Assembly (NCBI GenBank): GCA_024222295.1
Contig: JAAEPF010000023.1
Coordinates: 1-64,000, forward strand
Reading direction: 5' to 3'
Source of the DNA: Actinomycetes bacterium
GTDB taxonomy: Bacteria; Actinomycetota; Acidimicrobiia; Acidimicrobiales; Microtrichaceae
DNA length: 64,000 nucleotides
The position numbers and the translations under genes were made by a program. Below the pieces are notes generated by a model that worked only from the letters and a program-made list of their open reading frames with translations, was not told the DNA's origin and ran no database searches. Positions within the stretch are counted from its first letter, which is position 1, and every line of letters begins with the position of its first letter. This document shows, one piece after another, positions 48,593-57,746 of the stretch.

Positions 48593-48913
48593 TCAGCTGA
48601 AGGACTGCCCGCACCCGCAGGTGCGTTGTGCGTTGGGGTTGGTGATCGAGAACCCCGACTGGTCGAGGCCGTCGTTGTAGTCAAGCGTCGCCCCCTCGAG
48701 CAGCTGTGCGCTGGACGGATCGACCACGACCTTCACACCTCCGAAGTCGCCGGTCTCGTCGTCGGCCTCGACCGAGGTGTCGAGGAACATGTCGTATGAG
48801 AACCCGGAGCATCCGCCCGGGCGAACCGCCACGCGCAGTGCCAGGCTCTCGTCGCCCTCGGCCTCGATGAGCTGGCCCACCTTGGTGGCCGCTGATTCGG
48901 TCATCGTGATCAT
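48593..48913 (-). CDS. erpA: Iron-sulfur cluster insertion protein, ErpA/IscA type
   Basis: A-type carrier that hands Fe-S clusters to target proteins. The 106-residue protein has the three conserved cysteines: GGCSGFSYDMFLD and the C-terminal QRTCGCGQSFS, plus SFxITNPNA. ATG 48913 is favoured by GAGAGG seven bases upstream; ATG 48904 is also possible. It is near a SufR-like regulator and the Fe-S scaffold ATPase Mrp, so this 2-kb block is devoted to iron-sulfur biogenesis. Confidence 0.9.
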   Translation of the reverse strand: MITMTESAATKVGQLIEAEGDESLALRVAVRPGGCSGFSYDMFLDTSVEADDETGDFGGVKVVVDPSSAQLLEGATLDYNDGLDQSGFSITNPNAQRTCGCGQSFS

Positions 48914-49006
48914 GTGGTACCTCTCGGAACGGCCCGGTGGGCTCTGCCTGCACTGCACCGGTCGGACCGGCGTGTCTGCCAATTGTAACGGCCTGGGCCG
49001 TCAGAA

Positions 49007-49080
49007 CACAGCGCGGCACACGCGCGCAATCACAGCGCGGCACGCGCTCGCACGATCACAGCGCGGCACGTGCCCGCATC
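49007..49080. repeat. Three imperfect direct repeats, iteron-like
   Basis: CACAGCGCGGCAC occurs at 49007, 49031 and 49057, at 24- and 26-base spacing, each followed by a related GCGC/TCGCA tail. They lie between the ErpA-like start and the SufR-like stop. Transcription of the erpA gene begins nearby, so they could be regulator binding sites. They are too few and too close for a CRISPR array. Confidence 0.6.
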
Positions 49081-49097
49081 AACGGGACGGAGAGGCC

Positions 49098-49805
49098 TCA
49101 GGTTGCGGCCAACTCGGCGAGGCACGGCGTGCGGGCGCCGATGTCGTAGAACTCGGTGACGACGGCACCACTGTCGGGCGATGCACCCGACACTTCGTCC
49201 ACGAAGCCCTCCAGCATCCCGCGGTGCAGCGAGCAGACGACCTGGGGTTGGTCTTCTGCAAGGTCGGCGAAGGGACAGTGCCCGAATGCCACTGTCGTAC
49301 AGCCGGCTTCGGTGACAGTCGCCGGATCGAATCCCAACTCCTCGAGCATCTGCACGGTCATGTCGGCACAGGTGCCGAGCGTGCGGGGTGCGTGGGCCAT
49401 GCGCGCGCCGGCGCGCCTACCGGCTTCGAGCACGGACTCGGTGTCCGGTCCGGCGTCGACTGCGACCTGCAGCAGCATCGAGGCAAGCATGGGGTACACG
49501 GGCGGCTCAAGACCCAGGCTGGGCGCATCGCTGGCAAGCCCATAGAGCTTCTGGGGGCGGCCGACGGCCCCGCTCGTGTCGGGGCGAGATTCGAGCAGGC
49601 CGACCTCGCGCATCCGCTCGAGGTGTGGCCGCACCGTATTGAGGTGCAGGTCCAGCGAGTCCGCCACGTCGGAGGTCGACAGCGGCCGGGGTGACCGTGC
49701 GAGCTCCAGGTAGATCGCGTAGCGCGTGTTGTCGCCGAGCGTCTTGAGCACGTCGAGGCGCGTCGAACCCGACTCCCCGGGTGGTTCCTGCCGTCGCTGG
49801 GTCAC
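49098..49805 (-). CDS. SufR-like iron-sulfur transcriptional regulator (ArsR/DeoR-type HTH)
   Basis: A 235-residue regulator. The winged helix covers residues 15-80 (VLKTLGDNTRYAIYLELA, then STSDVADSLDLHLNTVRPHLERMREVGLL). The C-terminal sensor has cysteines in EAGCTTVAFGHCPFADLAED and QVVCSLHRGMLEGF, with another in TPCLAELA near the end; the HCPF-x-xxA and C-x-LHxG pattern is that of SufR and its relatives, which bind a 4Fe-4S cluster. In actinobacteria SufR represses the suf operon. GTG/ATG choice: ATG 49805 is used. It faces mrp divergently (56-base gap) and may control it and erpA. Confidence 0.82.
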   Translation of the reverse strand: MTQRRQEPPGESGSTRLDVLKTLGDNTRYAIYLELARSPRPLSTSDVADSLDLHLNTVRPHLERMREVGLLESRPDTSGAVGRPQKLYGLASDAPSLGLEPPVYPMLASMLLQVAVDAGPDTESVLEAGRRAGARMAHAPRTLGTCADMTVQMLEELGFDPATVTEAGCTTVAFGHCPFADLAEDQPQVVCSLHRGMLEGFVDEVSGASPDSGAVVTEFYDIGARTPCLAELAAT

Positions 49806-49861
49806 GCCCCAAGCATAGCGCCGAAGTAATTTAGCCGGTGTTGGCCGTTAGAATGAGGTCC

Positions 49862-51061
49862 ATGCCATCCGGCCCCCCACCAACCCCGCAACAGATCATG
49901 GACACCCTGCGGGCGGTGATCGACCCGGAGCTGGGCTCCGACATCGTCACTCTCGGAATGGCCCGCGAAGCGACGGTCGACCCCGAGGGCAACGTGTCGG
50001 TCCGAATCCTTCTCACCACCAGCGGGTGCCCGTTGCGCGCCGAGATCCAGCGCGAGGTCAAGGGCCGCGTCGGCGCCATGGACGGGGTCGACACGGTCGG
50101 CATCCAGTGGGGTGAGCTCGACGCCGCCCAGAAGGCCGAAACCATGGACCGCGCCCGCCGGGCAATGGCCGAGCGACCTGAGACCACTGCCGTTCCCTCC
50201 ACGGCCAAGGTGCTGCTGGTCGCCTCCGGCAAGGGGGGCGTGGGCAAGTCTTCGGTGACCGTCAACCTCGCCGCGGCACTGGCCGCCCAGGGCTACGCCG
50301 TGGGCGTGCTCGACGCCGACATCTGGGGCTTCTCGGTGCCCCGGATGCTGGGTGTCGACGAGCAGCTCTCCGCCGACGACGACGGCCGGATCACCCCGCA
50401 GCGGATCGACGTGGGCAAGGGGCACATCGACGTGGTGTCGATGGGCCTGCTCGTGGAGCAGGAGGGATCCGCCCTCATGTGGCGTGGCCTCATCCTCAAC
50501 CGCGCGGTGCGCCACTTCCTCGAAGACGTCGCCTGGGACGGGATCGACTACCTGCTCGTGGACATGCCCCCCGGCACCGGAGACGTGCAGATGGGGCTCG
50601 CCAAGATGCTCCCGCGCGCAGAGATGCTGGTGGTCACGACTCCTTCGATCAACGCCCAGAAGGTGGCAGTGCGGGTGGTGGACATGGGACGCAAGAACCA
50701 CCTCCACATGGCAGGCGTCGTGGAGAACATGTCCGTCTACGTCGACGACGACGGACGGGAGCACCATATCTTCGGTAGCGGCGGTGCCGAGCAACTCGCA
50801 GTGGATGCCGGAGTGCCGCTGATCGGCCGGCTCCCCATTGAGCCCGAGGTCTCCTCCGGCGGTGACGCGGGCCGGCCGGCGGCACTGGGTGACACGCCGG
50901 CCGCGGCGGCGTTCGGTGACCTGGCACAGACAGTTCTCGAGATCTGCCCTCCCACCGACCTCACTGGCTGCACGGCCAGGATGCTCGAGTCCGTGCAGGC
51001 CTCGCTTGACGCCGCCGACGCGAACAATCAGGACAGCGGCATCCCGGTTTCGCCGTCGTAG
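49862..51061 (+). CDS. mrp: Mrp/ApbC family Fe-S carrier ATPase
   Basis: P-loop ATPase that carries Fe-S clusters. The 399-residue protein has an N-terminal MIP18/DUF59 domain (VIDPELGSDIVTLGMAREA, TSGCPLRAEIQREV) and a MinD-like domain with the deviant Walker A VASGKGGVGKSSVTVNLA near residue 120, followed by DIWGFSVPRML and LLVDMPPGTGDVQM. The CPHC cluster-binding pair usual after ENMS is missing: the sequence reads ENMSVYVDDDGREHHIFG, as in some actinobacterial forms. ATG 49862 is preceded by GAGG. Its 3' end overlaps the NUDIX gene convergently by 34 bases. Confidence 0.92.
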   Translation: MPSGPPPTPQQIMDTLRAVIDPELGSDIVTLGMAREATVDPEGNVSVRILLTTSGCPLRAEIQREVKGRVGAMDGVDTVGIQWGELDAAQKAETMDRARRAMAERPETTAVPSTAKVLLVASGKGGVGKSSVTVNLAAALAAQGYAVGVLDADIWGFSVPRMLGVDEQLSADDDGRITPQRIDVGKGHIDVVSMGLLVEQEGSALMWRGLILNRAVRHFLEDVAWDGIDYLLVDMPPGTGDVQMGLAKMLPRAEMLVVTTPSINAQKVAVRVVDMGRKNHLHMAGVVENMSVYVDDDGREHHIFGSGGAEQLAVDAGVPLIGRLPIEPEVSSGGDAGRPAALGDTPAAAAFGDLAQTVLEICPPTDLTGCTARMLESVQASLDAADANNQDSGIPVSPS

Positions 51062-52618: not shown

Positions 52619-52876
52619 TCAGTCGGTTTCGAGCATGCCGCGCCGCTCGGCCTCGTTGAGGCCGCCCCAGATTCCGTGGGGCTCCTTGATGTGAAGCGAG
52701 TACTCGAGGCACTCTTCGCGCACATCACAGGTCACGCAGATCCGCTTCGCCCGGCGCTCACGCTCCAGGCGGTCGGCCTTGCGCTCGAACTGGGGTGGCG
52801 GAAAGAACACTTCCGCCTGAGGTCCGCGACAAGCGGCCTTCACCTGCCACATGTCCAATGTCGGCTGTGCGCTCAA
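52619..52876 (-). CDS. WhiB family iron-sulfur transcription factor
   Basis: An 85-residue WhiB protein that binds a 4Fe-4S cluster and the principal sigma factor. The four cysteines are at 16, 47, 50 and 56 (C-x30-C-x2-C-x5-C), and the turn GIWGG with a following basic segment (ERRGM) completes the family pattern. The start may be TTG 52876, with a GGGGGG run upstream, or ATG 52852. In mycobacteria, whiB4 lies beside the Rv3679-Rv3680 ATPases; here an NfeD gene lies between, so this may be the WhiB4 equivalent. The 52877-53022 gap is AT-richer and probably promoter. Confidence 0.88.
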   Translation of the reverse strand: MSAQPTLDMWQVKAACRGPQAEVFFPPPQFERKADRLERERRAKRICVTCDVREECLEYSLHIKEPHGIWGGLNEAERRGMLETD

Positions 52877-53022
52877 CTGGGCCCCCCATTGTCAGAGCGT
52901 CAACATTTCGCACCATAGCCATGGCCTTCGCCGGCCAACAAGGTGCAATTTGCAAGCATCGTGCTCGCTATCGCGAGCGCAGGCGTGAACCTGAACGCCT
53001 ACGTCCCGTCACGGGGGCGCCG

Positions 53023-54366
53023 TCAGTCGTCGTCCGACTGCCGCTTCTCGCGCATCTCGCGGTAGTCCATGGCACCGCCCTGCTCGGGCTCCACCTCGAG
53101 CAGCAAGCCGTCGATCTCGACGACCCGCACAACGTCCCCCTCGTCGATGGGCGTCGCCCGGTTGGTACGGGCCCGCCACAGTGCACCCGAGATCCGCACC
53201 GTTCCGTCGGGGTCCACGTCGGTGACCGCCGTTCCCTCCTCGCCGACCATCCAGTCACGTCCGATCGTGGGTGTGCCGAATCGGGTACGGACCATGGCCG
53301 GCATGCCCGAGTACATGGTGATCGCGATACCGATGATGCCGGTACCCAGCGCGATCCAGGTAGGTCTGAACTCGGTGAACAGGAACACCGATCCGACGGT
53401 GAACATCACCATGCCGATCGCGGTCCATGCGCGCGGCACCCCGCTCTGGATGTCGACGGCGAAAGCGACCGCCGAGAGCACGAGCAGCACGAGCGCCCAC
53501 ATGTTGTGTGGAAGCGCAGCAGTGCCATAGCCGCCGAGCACCACGCAGCCCGCTCCCACAACGCCCGCGATTCCGATGCCCGCGGTGTAGAACTCGAACA
53601 GCAATAGCCCCAGCGCTGCAGCCAGCAGCAGGTACGCCACCGAAGGGCTGGCGACCGTGTGCATCAACTGGGTGCCCAGGGGCAGCTTGGAGAACCGCAC
53701 CAACGCCACGGGAGTCCGGCCCTCGGAGCCCTCCTCATCGGACACCTCGCTCTCCACGCCGTCGATGTTCACGATGTGCTCACGCACGATGGGTGAGAAA
53801 CGGTCGACGACGCCCGCTTCAGCGGCTTCCTCACCGCTCAGGGCGGTGTCCAGCACCACAGCGGACTCCGCCGCGAACAGCTCGCCGAAGTCCTGCACCG
53901 CAAGGCGCTGTTGGCCCACTTCACCGACCTTCGCTCCCGGCGCCACCGAGGAGAAGTCGGCCACGGCCACCAGTTCCGCTGCCCCGCCCAGCGCCACCGC
54001 ACCCGAGGGACCCACCCATACAGTCACCGGCACGCGGGCCGAAACCATCGCCTCCGCGACCTCGGCCAGGCGCTGGTCGGAGACGGCCGACCCCTCGCTG
54101 TCGATCTGCAGCACCACCGCCTCGACATCCCCGGCCTCGTCGGCAGCCCGTAGCGTGTCGATGATGTTGCTCGCCTCGATCTCGTCGATCAGCCCGTCGA
54201 CCGCCACCACGTCGATGCACCCATCCGCCGCGCAGCTGCCCTGCGCCAGCGCAGGGGGCGACCACAACACGACGATCAGCCCAGCGAGCAACGCCGTGGC
54301 AACGGCACATCGCCTCATCGATCGGATGGCAGACTTGCCCACGGTGAGGGCCTCCAGATTGGACAT
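53023..54366 (-). CDS. nfeD: NfeD-type membrane protein with degenerate protease domain
   Basis: Long NfeD (447 residues): a signal peptide (VATALLAGLIVVLWSPPALA), a ClpP/SppA-like periplasmic domain (DVVAVDGLIDEIEASNIIDTL), then four or more membrane helices around 235-350 and a C-terminal OB-fold (GTAVTDVDPDGTVRISGALWRARTN). Serine proteases of this family have a nucleophile in a GARAASAG-type turn; here the segment reads GPSGAVALGGAAELVA, with Gly in the place of the serine, so proteolysis is doubtful. NfeD proteins usually pair with a flotillin/SPFH gene, which is not seen. ATG 54366 is the first start; M17 is possible. It is divergent from the ATPase pair. Confidence 0.85.
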   Translation of the reverse strand: MSNLEALTVGKSAIRSMRRCAVATALLAGLIVVLWSPPALAQGSCAADGCIDVVAVDGLIDEIEASNIIDTLRAADEAGDVEAVVLQIDSEGSAVSDQRLAEVAEAMVSARVPVTVWVGPSGAVALGGAAELVAVADFSSVAPGAKVGEVGQQRLAVQDFGELFAAESAVVLDTALSGEEAAEAGVVDRFSPIVREHIVNIDGVESEVSDEEGSEGRTPVALVRFSKLPLGTQLMHTVASPSVAYLLLAAALGLLLFEFYTAGIGIAGVVGAGCVVLGGYGTAALPHNMWALVLLVLSAVAFAVDIQSGVPRAWTAIGMVMFTVGSVFLFTEFRPTWIALGTGIIGIAITMYSGMPAMVRTRFGTPTIGRDWMVGEEGTAVTDVDPDGTVRISGALWRARTNRATPIDEGDVVRVVEIDGLLLEVEPEQGGAMDYREMREKRQSDDD

Positions 54367-54471
54367 TCACGAACGCGCCACCGCCCGTTCGGGTGGCAGC
54401 GGGATCAGCCCAGTCGCCCGCGCGTTGTGTCGCGACACCGAGGGGTGGCGCAGCCGGGCGTGGGGAGTGGG

Positions 54472-55440
54472 ATGAACCCAGCCGAATTCTTCGGTGAATC
54501 CGGCGTCACAATCGTCGCCGGGAAGGGCGGTGTGGGCAAAACCACGGTGACGGCAGCCCTCGCGGTGGCCGCTTCGATGGCGGGACTCCGCACCCTCGTG
54601 ATCGAGGTCGAGGGCAAGGAGGCCATGGCCTCCATGTTCGAAACGGGTGGGCTGACCTACTCCGAGCTCGAACTCGTGCGTGCCGCCGAAGCCCACGCCG
54701 GGGTGCACGCGCGCACGCTCACCCCCGACGACGCGCTGCTTGACTACCTGGCCGGCCGGGGCTTCCAGCGGATCTCCAACCGCCTGGTTTCGACCGGGCT
54801 GCTCGACATCATCGCCACCGCCGTGCCCGGCATCCGCGACATCCTCGTGCTGGGCAAGGTGAAGCAGCTGCAGCGCGACGGCGGCCACGACCTGATCCTG
54901 CTCGATGCGCCGGCGGCCGGCCATGCGATCACCTTCCTGCGCTCGGCTCGCGGCCTCGCCGACGCGGTGCGCAGCGGGCCCATCAACACCCAGGCCAACG
55001 ACGTGCTCGAGTTGCTCAACGACCCCGCTCGCTGCCGGGTGGTGCTTGTGACGCTGCCCGAGGAGACGCCGGTCAACGAACTGATAGAGACCGCCTACAG
55101 CCTCGAAGAGGACGTCGGCGTCGCACTGGGCCCGGTCGTCGTCAACGGTGTGTACCCCGAGCTCGCAGGGCTGGGTACCGATCCCGAAGAGGCTGCGGCC
55201 GACGCCGGCACCCACCTGGTCGACGGCGAAGCCGAGCTGCTGTGCGCGGCGGCCGAGTTCCGCACGAGACGCCGGTCCATCCAGGACCGCCAACTGGAAC
55301 GCATGGCCGAACAGCTCCCACTCGCACAGCTGCAACTCCCCTACCTGTTCACCTCCGAGCTCGACCGCGACGGACTCGAGGTGCTCGCCCAGGCCCTGTT
55401 CGACGGCATAGTCGAGCTGCCCGAGGACGGTGGGGCATGA
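54472..55440 (+). CDS. ArsA/Get3-like ATPase, first of a pair
   Basis: A 322-residue P-loop ATPase of the ArsA/Get3 type. VTIVAGKGGVGKTTVTAAL is the intact deviant Walker A (KGGVGKT) at residues 11-29; VIEVEGKEA and LILLDAPAAGHAITFLRSA are switch regions. The arsenite-binding cysteines of ArsA are absent, so arsenic transport is unlikely. It matches the Rv3679 type of mycobacteria, which pairs with Rv3680 and has been linked to glycerol-related and redox stress. ATG 54472 is preceded by GGGGAG. Its stop overlaps the second ATPase as ATGA. Confidence 0.88.
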   Translation: MNPAEFFGESGVTIVAGKGGVGKTTVTAALAVAASMAGLRTLVIEVEGKEAMASMFETGGLTYSELELVRAAEAHAGVHARTLTPDDALLDYLAGRGFQRISNRLVSTGLLDIIATAVPGIRDILVLGKVKQLQRDGGHDLILLDAPAAGHAITFLRSARGLADAVRSGPINTQANDVLELLNDPARCRVVLVTLPEETPVNELIETAYSLEEDVGVALGPVVVNGVYPELAGLGTDPEEAAADAGTHLVDGEAELLCAAAEFRTRRRSIQDRQLERMAEQLPLAQLQLPYLFTSELDRDGLEVLAQALFDGIVELPEDGGA

Positions 55441-56567
55441 GCGACCTGGCCTCCATCGTCGAGGGGTCGAGAGTGGTCGTGTGCTGTGGCTCCGGCGGAG
55501 TCGGAAAGACCACGACAGCGGCCGTTCTGGCGCTCGAAGCCGCCCGGCAGGGTCGGCGGTCGGTGGTGGTCACCATCGACCCGGCGCGCCGGCTGGCAGA
55601 CGCCCTCGGCCTCGAAGGGCTCACCAACACGCCTTCGCGCATCGACGCCGACATGCCCGGTGAGATGCATGCCCTGATGCTCGACACCAAGAGCACCTTC
55701 GATGGGCTCGTGCGGCGCCATTCGGCCACCGCCGAACAGGCCGAGGGCATCCTCGAGAACCGCTTCTACCAGAACATCTCGTCGGCCCTGTCGGGCACAC
55801 AGGAGTACATGGCCTCCGAGAAGCTGTACGAGCTGGCAGAGGAGGGCGACTGGGACCTGGTGGTCGTGGACACACCCCCCACCCGCAACGCCCTCGACTT
55901 CCTGGATGCCCCACAGCGGCTCGCACACTTCCTCGACCACCGGCTCTACAAGGTGCTGATGACACCCACCCGCGGGATAGTGCGAGCGGTCAACGTCGCC
56001 GCGCAGGCCGTCGTGCGGAGCATGTCCAAAGTGGTGGGCGGCGACGTCGTGGCGGACGCGATCGCGTTCTTCCGGGCGTTCGAGGGAATGGAACAGGGCT
56101 TCAAGGAACGCGCCGCAGCTGTTGACCGCCTGCTCGCAGCGCCGGAGACCGCTTTCATCCTCGTGGCCTCACCCAAGGCCGACACCGTGGCGGAGGCCAG
56201 CTATTTCGCCGAGCAACTCGCCGAGCACGGCATCGACGTGCGCGGGCTCGTGGTCAACCGCATGCAACCCGCATTCGGCACCGACGACGAGGGGCTCGCG
56301 CTGGGTCCGGATGCCGCACGTGAGCGCGCCAACACACTCGCCGGCACAGACCTTGGTGACCTGTACACCGCCCTGGCAGACGCCCGGCAACTGGCCCGCG
56401 GCGAGGAAGACCACCTCGTGGGACTGACCGAGAGGGTGAGCCCGGCTCCGGTGGTGAGGGTGCCGGTGCAGCCCTTCGAGGTGAACGACCTCGACGGACT
56501 GCACGTGCTCGGCGGATTCATGCTCGGTGGTGCCGTCGATGATCCCGCGGAGGCCAACGGGGACTGA
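55437..56567 (+). CDS. ArsA/Get3-like ATPase, second of a pair
   Basis: A 376-residue partner of the preceding ATPase. VVVCCGSGGVGKTTTAAVLALEAA carries the P-loop, but the signature lysine of KGGVGKT is Ser (SGGVGKT), so it may act as the less active half of a heterodimer. TIDPARRLADALGLEGL and LVVVDTPPTRNALDFLDAP are the switch I and II regions. A helical insertion (about 180-240) contains FFRAFEGMEQGFKERA. It starts at ATG 55437 inside the stop of its neighbour and resembles the Rv3680 type. A receiver-only gene follows after 48 bases. Confidence 0.88.
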   Translation: MSDLASIVEGSRVVVCCGSGGVGKTTTAAVLALEAARQGRRSVVVTIDPARRLADALGLEGLTNTPSRIDADMPGEMHALMLDTKSTFDGLVRRHSATAEQAEGILENRFYQNISSALSGTQEYMASEKLYELAEEGDWDLVVVDTPPTRNALDFLDAPQRLAHFLDHRLYKVLMTPTRGIVRAVNVAAQAVVRSMSKVVGGDVVADAIAFFRAFEGMEQGFKERAAAVDRLLAAPETAFILVASPKADTVAEASYFAEQLAEHGIDVRGLVVNRMQPAFGTDDEGLALGPDAARERANTLAGTDLGDLYTALADARQLARGEEDHLVGLTERVSPAPVVRVPVQPFEVNDLDGLHVLGGFMLGGAVDDPAEANGD

Positions 56568-56615
56568 ACTCCCGGCTTTGTCCGCCAGGGTCACCACAGC
56601 GGTAGCGTCGTCGGT

Positions 56616-57008
56616 GTGAGTGACCGATTCGAACGCACGATCCTGCTGGCCACCGACGACGATGCCACCTTCGCCGAGGTGGAATCGGCACTCGTGGACG
56701 AAGCCACCTCGCTGTCGAGAGTGCGCGCCGGATCCGACGTGCGTGACGCCGTTGCCGCGCTGGATCCCGACCTGGTCATCTGTGACCTCCAGATCGGCAA
56801 CATGGGTGGCGTGGCGACAGCTCTGGACCTGCGGCTCGAGGAAGGCGCAGGCCGCCTGGAGCCGCGGCCGATCCTGTTGCTGTTGGATCGTGCAGACGAT
56901 GAGTTCATCGCTCGCCGCTCCGGTGCCGATGCCTGGGTGGTGAAGCCGCTCGATTCGCTCACCGTCAGGCGCAGCACCGACGCACTCATGGCGCCCGCCG
57001 AAGGCTGA
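56616..57008 (+). CDS. Stand-alone response regulator receiver protein
   Basis: A 130-residue single-domain receiver. Acidic residues DD at 14-15, the phospho-Asp D57 in DLVICDLQIGNMGG and the lysine K110 in WVVKPLD are in place; the usual Ser/Thr switch residue is Asp (LLLLD). It has no output domain and no histidine kinase neighbour, so it may act through protein contact. GTG 56616 starts 48 bases after the ATPase pair, and the same spacing suggests it may be in that operon. Confidence 0.75.
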   Translation: MSDRFERTILLATDDDATFAEVESALVDEATSLSRVRAGSDVRDAVAALDPDLVICDLQIGNMGGVATALDLRLEEGAGRLEPRPILLLLDRADDEFIARRSGADAWVVKPLDSLTVRRSTDALMAPAEG

Positions 57009-57065
57009 CACACGGAATCAGGCTTTCACCTGCGCCCGGTGGCGTGGGTACGATGTTGGCCCCAA

Positions 57066-57142
57066 CGGGTGGTGGCGCAGCTTGGCAGCGCGCCTCGTTC
57101 GGGACGAGGAGGCCGGGAGTTCAAATCTCCCCCACCCGACCA
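57066..57142 (+). tRNA. tRNA-Pro (anticodon CGG)
   Basis: Complete cloverleaf on the plus strand: acceptor CGGGTGG/CCACCCG, D-arm GCGC/GCGC, anticodon stem CCTCG/CGAGG with loop TTCGGGA (anticodon CGG, reading CCG), T-arm GGGAG/CTCCC with loop TTCAAAT, discriminator A and an encoded CCA. No 3'-half duplication was seen in the window. Confidence 0.95.
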
Positions 57143-57266
57143 TCTGGCACGCGGTGCCCGGTCCATCCGGGCGCCGCGTGCGCTGTTCTCGACCGGGTTC
57201 GCGGACTATCGAGTGAAATCCGTCGCGAAAGTCAAGGACGTCACGGGACCGTCCGATGCTAGGTAC

Positions 57267-57746
57267 GTGACAAGGGCAGACACACTGCGGGGCCGAGTAG
57301 GCCACTGGCGAAAGAGCCGGCTGCTCGCGCTGGTCGCATTCGCGGTTGCAGCAGCCTTCCTGGGGGCCTGCGAGTCCACCAAGGCCGAGCTGGACGCCGT
57401 TCGAAACGAGGTCAACGCCTCACGGGCCGCCGCTGGACTCCCCCCGGTGGCCGAGAACATCGTGCTGGACATCAAGGCCGACAACTGGGCCCAGCAGATG
57501 CGCAACCAGTGCCGGATCTGGCACTCCCGCCTCGCCGACGGGGCTCCGCCACAATGGAGGAAGCTGGGAGAGAACGTCGGCATGGGCGGCAACATCTCCC
57601 AGATCCACAACGCCTACATGAACTCGCCGGGACACAGGGCCAATGTGCTCGACCCGGCGTTCACCGAGATGGGTACCGCAGCCGTATGGGGTGAGTGCAA
57701 TGGCTACCGCACCCTGTTCACGGTGCACGTCTTCATGGCGACCTGA
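57267..57746 (+). CDS. CAP/SCP-domain lipoprotein
   Basis: A 159-residue secreted protein: after GTG 57267 and a basic stretch (GHWRKSRLL) comes a hydrophobic segment and the lipobox FLGAC. The mature part is a compact CAP domain: AVRNEVNASRAAAGLPPV, HSRLADG, WRKLGENVGMGGNI, MNSPGHRANVLDPAFTEMG, with the two histidines of the CAP site, and the closing FTVHVFMAT. Bacterial CAP (SCP/PR1) proteins are mostly of unknown activity, some bind sterols or lipids. Upstream is the tRNA-Pro; the 124 bases between carry no gene. Confidence 0.8.
   Translation: MTRADTLRGRVGHWRKSRLLALVAFAVAAAFLGACESTKAELDAVRNEVNASRAAAGLPPVAENIVLDIKADNWAQQMRNQCRIWHSRLADGAPPQWRKLGENVGMGGNISQIHNAYMNSPGHRANVLDPAFTEMGTAAVWGECNGYRTLFTVHVFMAT

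Follow-up and report, generated by a model that had tools for sequence, protein, structure and literature searches.

Introduction

In Mycobacterium tuberculosis the Get3-like ATPases BagA and BagB (Rv3679-Rv3680) are encoded with whiB4 nearby, as SCO3578 is with wblA in Streptomyces. These systems and the locus described here have in common a BagA-then-BagB order, a BagB without the signature Lys of the P-loop, and a neighboring WhiB. According to a passage of PMC3765725, Frankia, Thermobifida, and M. tuberculosis have conserved the wblA-sco3578 arrangement, and another passage, in PMC10597346 and citing Whitaker 2020, links M. tuberculosis bagAB to glycerol and nitric-oxide toxicity. The role of bacterial Get3-like ATPases is still largely open. 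The locus in question lies at positions 52619-57008 of a 64,000-nucleotide stretch of DNA (the window; contig JAAEPF010000023.1 of assembly GCA_024222295.1, 3.76 Mb over 115 contigs) from a bacterium of the class Acidimicrobiia. It encodes a WhiB, an NfeD, a BagA-BagB-like ATPase pair, and a single-domain receiver, all five genes being present as first described in an earlier note made from the sequence alone.

Described relatives also exist for the other two proteins. NfeD and SPFH genes are a usual pair, and NfeD1b/PH1510 is a stomatin-operon-partner protease. The mycobacterial receiver Rv3143 binds NuoD, as stated in a part of PMC9274095, a paper that also describes an actinobacterial insertion in NuoD. 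When the literature was searched for any two or more of NfeD, ArsA, Get3, and anion-transporting ATPase, no NfeD appeared among the matches listed, and for NfeD with WhiB only a Rhodococcus genome report turned up. For NfeD with ClpP and SPFH two papers matched, PMC2636767 among them.

Results and Discussion

A BagB search matched 115 of 148 Acidimicrobiia genomes, some of the matches belonging to a second or, in places, third paralogous locus. Regions around the matches were scanned with tblastn and with hidden Markov models seeded from class loci. Our set of 74 class loci was chosen by hand, so proportions among them are not unbiased, and absences of members are upper bounds because some contigs end nearby. 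In 38 of the 74, WhiB and NfeD on one strand are followed by BagA, BagB, and the receiver on the other. Median gaps between the matched parts, in that order, are 138, 147, 33, and 71 bp (n = 46, 47, 54, and 52). The flanks vary, with medians of 3219 bp between NUDIX and WhiB (n = 38) and 1480 bp between the receiver and Asd (n = 33). Because 38 loci keep the order with tight gaps while the flanks vary, the gene order is more than chance. Eight loci lack WhiB alone, five lack NfeD alone, and five hold other subsets; the rest are WhiB-NfeD-receiver (seven), WhiB-receiver (six), and NfeD-receiver (five). The remaining genes close up after the loss of a member. WhiB and the receiver are then 131-180 bp apart in 6 of 6 loci, and NfeD and the receiver at most 700 bp apart in 11 of the 12 loci where members are missing.

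We also surveyed all 148 class genomes as an unchosen set, at E 1e-8 for the receiver and E 1e-10 for NfeD. The receiver is matched in 109 genomes and NfeD in 96. Those without a receiver match include the f14 group, with genomes of about 1 Mb, and four have an NfeD match but no receiver match. NfeD was matched in 92 of the 109 receiver-bearing genomes, and in 89 of these it is no more than 6 kb from the receiver. The refutation named in the earlier note, a lack of conservation of nfeD or the receiver with the ATPases in relatives, fails on these counts. BagB counts per genome refer to the matches listed, and weak BagB matches are missed. On that basis BagB adjoins the receiver in 64 of 109 genomes. 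An NfeD within 6 kb and a BagB within 3 kb accompany 56 of the receivers, NfeD only 33, BagB only 8, and neither 12. Where NfeD alone accompanies the receiver, the two are 35-269 bp apart in 32 of the 33 genomes, a gap too small for BagAB to lie between. The other, G080, has a gap of 2506 bp and shares a family with G009. In that genome a diverged Get3-like protein with the signature Lys occupies the BagB place (L159:8362-10377), an observation from one genome.

A third sample consisted of named loci, the best 80 of 578, which overlap the 74-locus set (by length, at least two contigs are common to both). Their labels are mostly of Acidimicrobiia type and others just actinobacteria, with a few odd ones (Bifidobacterium breve, Acidobacteria, Thermoanaerobacterales). 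Among these 80 the nearest relative by receiver is a Microthrixaceae metagenome-assembled genome (MAG), at 70% identity. The class supposed in the earlier note is thereby supported. Gene content was scored in the 46 loci of at least 13.3 kb: 22 encode all five genes, and 21 encode WhiB, NfeD, and the receiver without Bag, including Candidatus Microthrix MAGs and MedAcidi-G3. The steadier core is WhiB-NfeD-receiver, and BagAB is optional. The five-gene module suggested earlier thus holds as a conserved neighborhood and is too narrow as a definition, since 33 of 109 receiver genomes pair NfeD with the receiver without a listed BagB.

Outside the class we scanned 40 regions around BagB matches from a 216-genome search of the phylum. 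Half of them, 20 of 40, have NfeD upstream of BagA, in a few more than 0.8 kb away, a count made with some contigs ending too early to tell. A long-insert WhiB is upstream in 11 of 40 and a second WhiB is downstream of BagB in 20 of 40; four loci have both types (L112-L114, L131). Ten (L115-L118, L127, L129, L132-L134, L138) encode BagA, BagB, and WhiB without NfeD, resembling the wblA-sco3578 arrangement as outlined in part of PMC3765725. No receiver of the locus type was found in the 40 loci scanned. The NfeD-BagAB neighborhood thus extends beyond the class, and within this sample only class members have the receiver next to it.

The NfeD of the window (53023-54366, reverse strand; 447 amino acids) passes both domain cut-offs, with 61.4 bits for PF01957 and 54.5 bits for PF24961. 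Like NfeD1b/PH1510, it has a ClpP-like domain, here after an N-terminal helix, then a membrane domain and a C-terminal OB-like NfeD domain. Its AlphaFold model has a predicted local distance difference test score (pLDDT) of 87. The first fold matches are PH1510-N protease structures (3viv, E 9e-12), and PH1510-C (3wwv) is among the matches for the C-terminal domain. Unlike PH1510, it has neither the Ser nor the Lys of the protease: alignment and bases place a Gly codon (53986-53988, reverse strand; residue 127 by count) at the position of Ser97, and a gap at that of the Lys. The loss of the catalytic serine reported earlier extends beyond the window. At the Ser97 position 121 of 129 class loci have Gly and 2 have Ser (57 and 2 of 63 with named loci excluded). 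At the Lys position no residue is aligned in any of the 129 (0 of 63), a count whose weakness is that it depends on aligning a gapped region. By alignment, the class NfeD has lost the catalytic dyad of PH1510. Among the 20 Bag-linked NfeDs outside the class, 8 have the Ser and 7 have both Ser and Lys. The sole Band_7 (SPFH) match of the genome adjoins a different, short NfeD, separate from the locus (G000:C2:296523-297420), unlike the pairing known for NfeD1b/PH1510.

The receiver (56616-57008, forward strand; 130 amino acids) scores 33.5 bits on PF00072 against a cut-off of 30.2, which bears out the receiver-only protein of the earlier note. It keeps the phospho-Asp and the Lys and carries an LLLLDR motif. 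Among 72 class receivers the phospho-Asp is found in all and the Lys in 71, and the second acidic position is Asp in 64 and Glu in 6. The first acidic position is Ala, Thr, Ser, or Cys in all 72 and never Asp or Glu. Likewise, the β4 position is Leu, Val, or Gly in all 72, never Thr or Ser, and is followed in each by Asp-Arg. Two features of canonical CheY-type receivers, the first acidic residue and the Thr/Ser, are hence absent from every one.

The fold of this receiver (AlphaFold pLDDT 96) is nearest to 8e9g_O and 8e9i_O of mycobacterial complex I, other receivers being about ten-fold behind in E-value. We take 8e9g_O to be MSMEG_2064. It ranks ninth in a profile search and far lower by single sequence, where MtrA is first. 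Like Rv3143 and MSMEG_2064, the locus receiver is a single domain without the first acidic residue. It also shares with MSMEG_2064 two residues fewer after β4 than in MtrA and an R..D.[FW][IL]A stretch. MSMEG_2064 differs in keeping the Thr and in having His-Pro where the locus receiver has Lys-Pro, and the locus receiver lies away from nuo. On NF050825, the Rv3143 model, it scores only 28.7-29.7 against a cut-off of 200. It is the only match of its genome to that model at E 0.01, and 6 of 14 control genomes also gave matches to the model that fall short of its cut-off. The receiver is likely kin to Rv3143, judging by the shared deletion and motif. A 37-sequence tree, with the root set by hand, placed MSMEG_2064 among out-of-class receivers (99, 92, 95, 93); the canonical proteins, four with five domains in all, grouped at 99. 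The class, out-of-class (with MSMEG_2064), and canonical receivers form three groups; because three remain, the tree does not tell which two are closest, and we softened its use as proof of kinship with MSMEG_2064.

The best matches of the receiver profile outside the class include orphan receivers, some beside a WhiB. For one of them, L174, the best solved relative is 8e9g_O (5e-17). No nuo genes were found near these relatives among the 20 proteins scanned, which cover part of those loci. The locus itself suggests that receivers related to the one in mycobacterial complex I may be encoded elsewhere than in nuo operons. Five of the relatives (L169, L170, L173, L175, L177) stand directly before a same-strand WhiB, and in four of the five an ErpA-like match lies some kb upstream.

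The ATPases are adjacent. BagA (322 amino acids, forward strand) most likely starts at the ATG at 54472 rather than at 54427, where its open reading frame (ORF; 54427-55440) opens, giving 54472-55440; the ATG of BagB (55437-56567, forward strand; 376 amino acids) is at 55437 and overlaps the BagA end. They score 72.2 and 110.4 bits on PF02374, and their best solved relatives are 6bs3_A (Rv3679, E 9e-30) for BagA and 6bs3_B (E 6.2e-88), named 'Anion transporter' and presumably Rv3680, for BagB. Neither reaches the equivalog cut-offs of the NCBIfam BagA and BagB models (152.8 bits against 400 for NF053622; 386.2 against 521 for NF053621) nor that of the Get3/TRC40 subfamily TIGR00345 (67.5 and 93.9 against 135). 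As in described BagA-BagB pairs, BagA has the signature Lys (GKGGVGKT) and BagB does not (GSGGVGKT, Lys replaced by Ser). The earlier note had pointed out this loss in the second ATPase. The loss is real, and its being special to the locus is ruled out: it is a trait of the BagB family, and the BagB chain of M. tuberculosis (CGAGGVGKT) has it too. The signature Lys is present in 145 of 145 BagA P-loops (96 of 96 class, 37 of 37 out-of-class, 12 of 12 second-locus) and absent from 154 of 156 BagBs (101 of 103 class, 39 of 39 out-of-class, 12 of 12 second-locus, 2 of 2 third-locus), where S, T, A, or P takes its place. These counts leave out nine proteins without a readable P-loop, and the class figures include overlapping named loci. 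The two class exceptions are L224, a frame that scores for both BagA and BagB, and L159.

In switch I the BagB of the window keeps DPA, as do 154 of 156 BagBs and 0 of 145 BagAs, and its BagA has Glu at the Asp position. By sequence, the firm asymmetry of the pair is the signature Lys, in BagA alone. In Get3-type dimers this Lys contacts the partner site in trans. Given that contact, BagA can supply the Lys and BagB cannot, from which we infer one Lys-supplied ATPase site per BagA-BagB heterodimer.

A second BagA-BagB pair is encoded elsewhere in the genome (G000:C2; L037:6890-13121); DUF3107 precedes it, a PdtaS-type histidine kinase follows, and a WhiB of 27-residue spacing belongs to the set. 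A set like it recurs in L041, L045, L094, L096, and L099-L101. Two genomes of one family have a further pair (L044, L095), with no WhiB, NfeD, or receiver match adjoining it.

The WhiB (52619-52876, reverse strand; 85 amino acids) scores 82.6 bits on PF02467 against a cut-off of 23.6. With four Cys and a GIWGG form of the G[IV]WGG motif, it belongs to the Wbl family. Between its first two Cys are 30 residues, the long-insert type. The spacing is 30 in 43 of 45 class WhiBs and 32 in two, and it is 30 in all 11 upstream WhiBs outside the class. In the downstream WhiBs it is 20-22 (13 kept; seven weakly aligned ones dropped). We rejected an identity with WhiB4 or WblA on the NfeD-side position and on the spacing of 30 against 20-22, a comparison made with downstream WhiBs and no named WhiB4 sequence. 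The likeness to the whiB4/Rv3679-Rv3680 region noted before hence holds for the ATPase pair but not for the regulator. Compared with that region and with SCO3578/wblA, the locus adds NfeD and the receiver, and its WhiB is of another type and on the opposite side.

The findings are most simply explained by a membrane-associated gene set in which WhiB, NfeD, and the receiver form the core and the Get3-like pair is optional, and we infer that its genes are functionally coupled. That this conserved Acidimicrobiia locus, with BagA/BagB often inserted in the core, works as such a membrane-linked set is a proposal to which we give nearly an even chance. NfeD would then be a membrane-anchored pseudoprotease that binds instead of cutting, with its OB-like domain as a docking face. 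Rather than working as the usual phospho-switch, the receiver may be an adaptor that binds proteins on a membrane complex, the complex being NfeD or, as for its relative MSMEG_2064, a respiratory one. In the heterodimer only the P-loop site of BagB would receive the signature Lys in trans from BagA, leaving one main ATPase site; the pair would shield hydrophobic membrane clients and release them at the membrane. WhiB could tune expression to redox or nitric-oxide stress. For the ATPases the locus suggests NfeD as a membrane partner, the receiver as an adaptor, and WhiB as a regulator, familiar parts combined into a testable gene set. The protease domain has lost its catalytic residues across the class and yet the linkage persists. 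Direct tests are possible, since some natural genomes have BagAB at this place and others lack it. A more specific version makes the pseudoprotease and pseudo-receiver a lasting membrane adaptor pair for a one-site Get3-like heterodimer, in assembly or repair of respiratory or envelope complexes under redox control by WhiB. It is speculative and we think it improbable; if true, it would be a bacterial route of membrane-protein handling without a known eukaryotic counterpart.

Several observations weigh against coupling. Neighbors on the chromosome are not demonstrated partners. The ordinary Asd-AK pair is close as well (median 27 bp, n = 30). Members are lost independently (one of the eight WhiB-less loci ends in NfeD, at a contig edge), and in one genome the receiver is encoded away from the WhiB-NfeD-BagAB locus. 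The neighbors named at the locus include no SPFH gene, and a sigma-70 promoter scan of the locus gave zero sites. The ATPase asymmetry is also less complete than a BagA uniformly without the switch-I Asp would make it, a view we softened: at the fixed offset Glu is found in 99 of 145 BagAs (73 class, 26 out-of-class, 0 second-locus), Asp in 35, and other residues in 11. In PMC10248533 the switch-I Asp coordinates water in Get3, and a Get3d with Glu there is reported still to work at lower Vmax; the BagA site may for that reason be weak rather than dead. On the trans role of the signature Lys, no passage was found in PMC2778870.

The region could instead be one that is rarely rearranged, in which only BagA and BagB work together. 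Mrp, NUDIX, Asd, and AK are repeatedly found near the cluster, so that the wider region is partly syntenic as well. All 20 loci chosen for the test, some within and some outside the class, have a tRNA-Pro (CGG) downstream (57066-57142, forward strand, by ARAGORN, in the window), which supports positional correspondence. However, core spacing stays tight while the flanks gain several kb, survivors re-close once BagAB or NfeD is lost, and the NfeD-BagAB neighborhood occurs outside the class too, and we regard passive synteny as unlikely. An older partnership of NfeD and BagAB, as membrane receptor and targeting ATPase, with WhiB and the receiver as later regulators and BagAB loss leaving a remnant, would agree with the 20 of 40 out-of-class loci that have NfeD upstream of BagA, both catalytic residues in 7 of 20, and no receiver of the locus type. 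It predicts fewer Bag-less loci than the 33 of 109 receiver genomes and 21 of 46 full-length named loci observed, and seems distinctly unlikely.

A third alternative holds that the receiver, like Rv3143 and MSMEG_2064, is an accessory subunit of complex I, encoded here by happenstance and independent of NfeD and BagAB. The top folds, the features shared with 8e9g_O, the sole match to the Rv3143 model in the genome, and the binding of NuoD by Rv3143 reported in that part of PMC9274095 all fit it, as does a NuoD match in 148 of 148 class genomes. These last include genomes without the receiver, however, making NuoD uninformative on its role, and the NuoD match of this genome (C23:389521) is away from the receiver. 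The low NF050825 score with its matches in control genomes, the ninth place of 8e9g_O by profile and its far lower one by single sequence, where MtrA leads, the undecided tree, and the residues in which MSMEG_2064 differs also count against it, and we consider it rather unlikely.

Around the membrane-linked gene set proposed here, a terminator scan gave one terminator-like site, scoring below the shuffle mean. The listed start of a CAP-domain ORF (57039-57746) lies before the tRNA-Pro, so its true start is probably downstream; an antisense tRNA-Gln call nearby is probably an overlap artefact. On the other side, about 1.6-4 kb from WhiB, a regulator-like ORF is flanked by ErpA-like and Mrp-like genes, which were named by eye (48593-51061). 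A Mrp and regulator pair was matched near the second Bag locus too.

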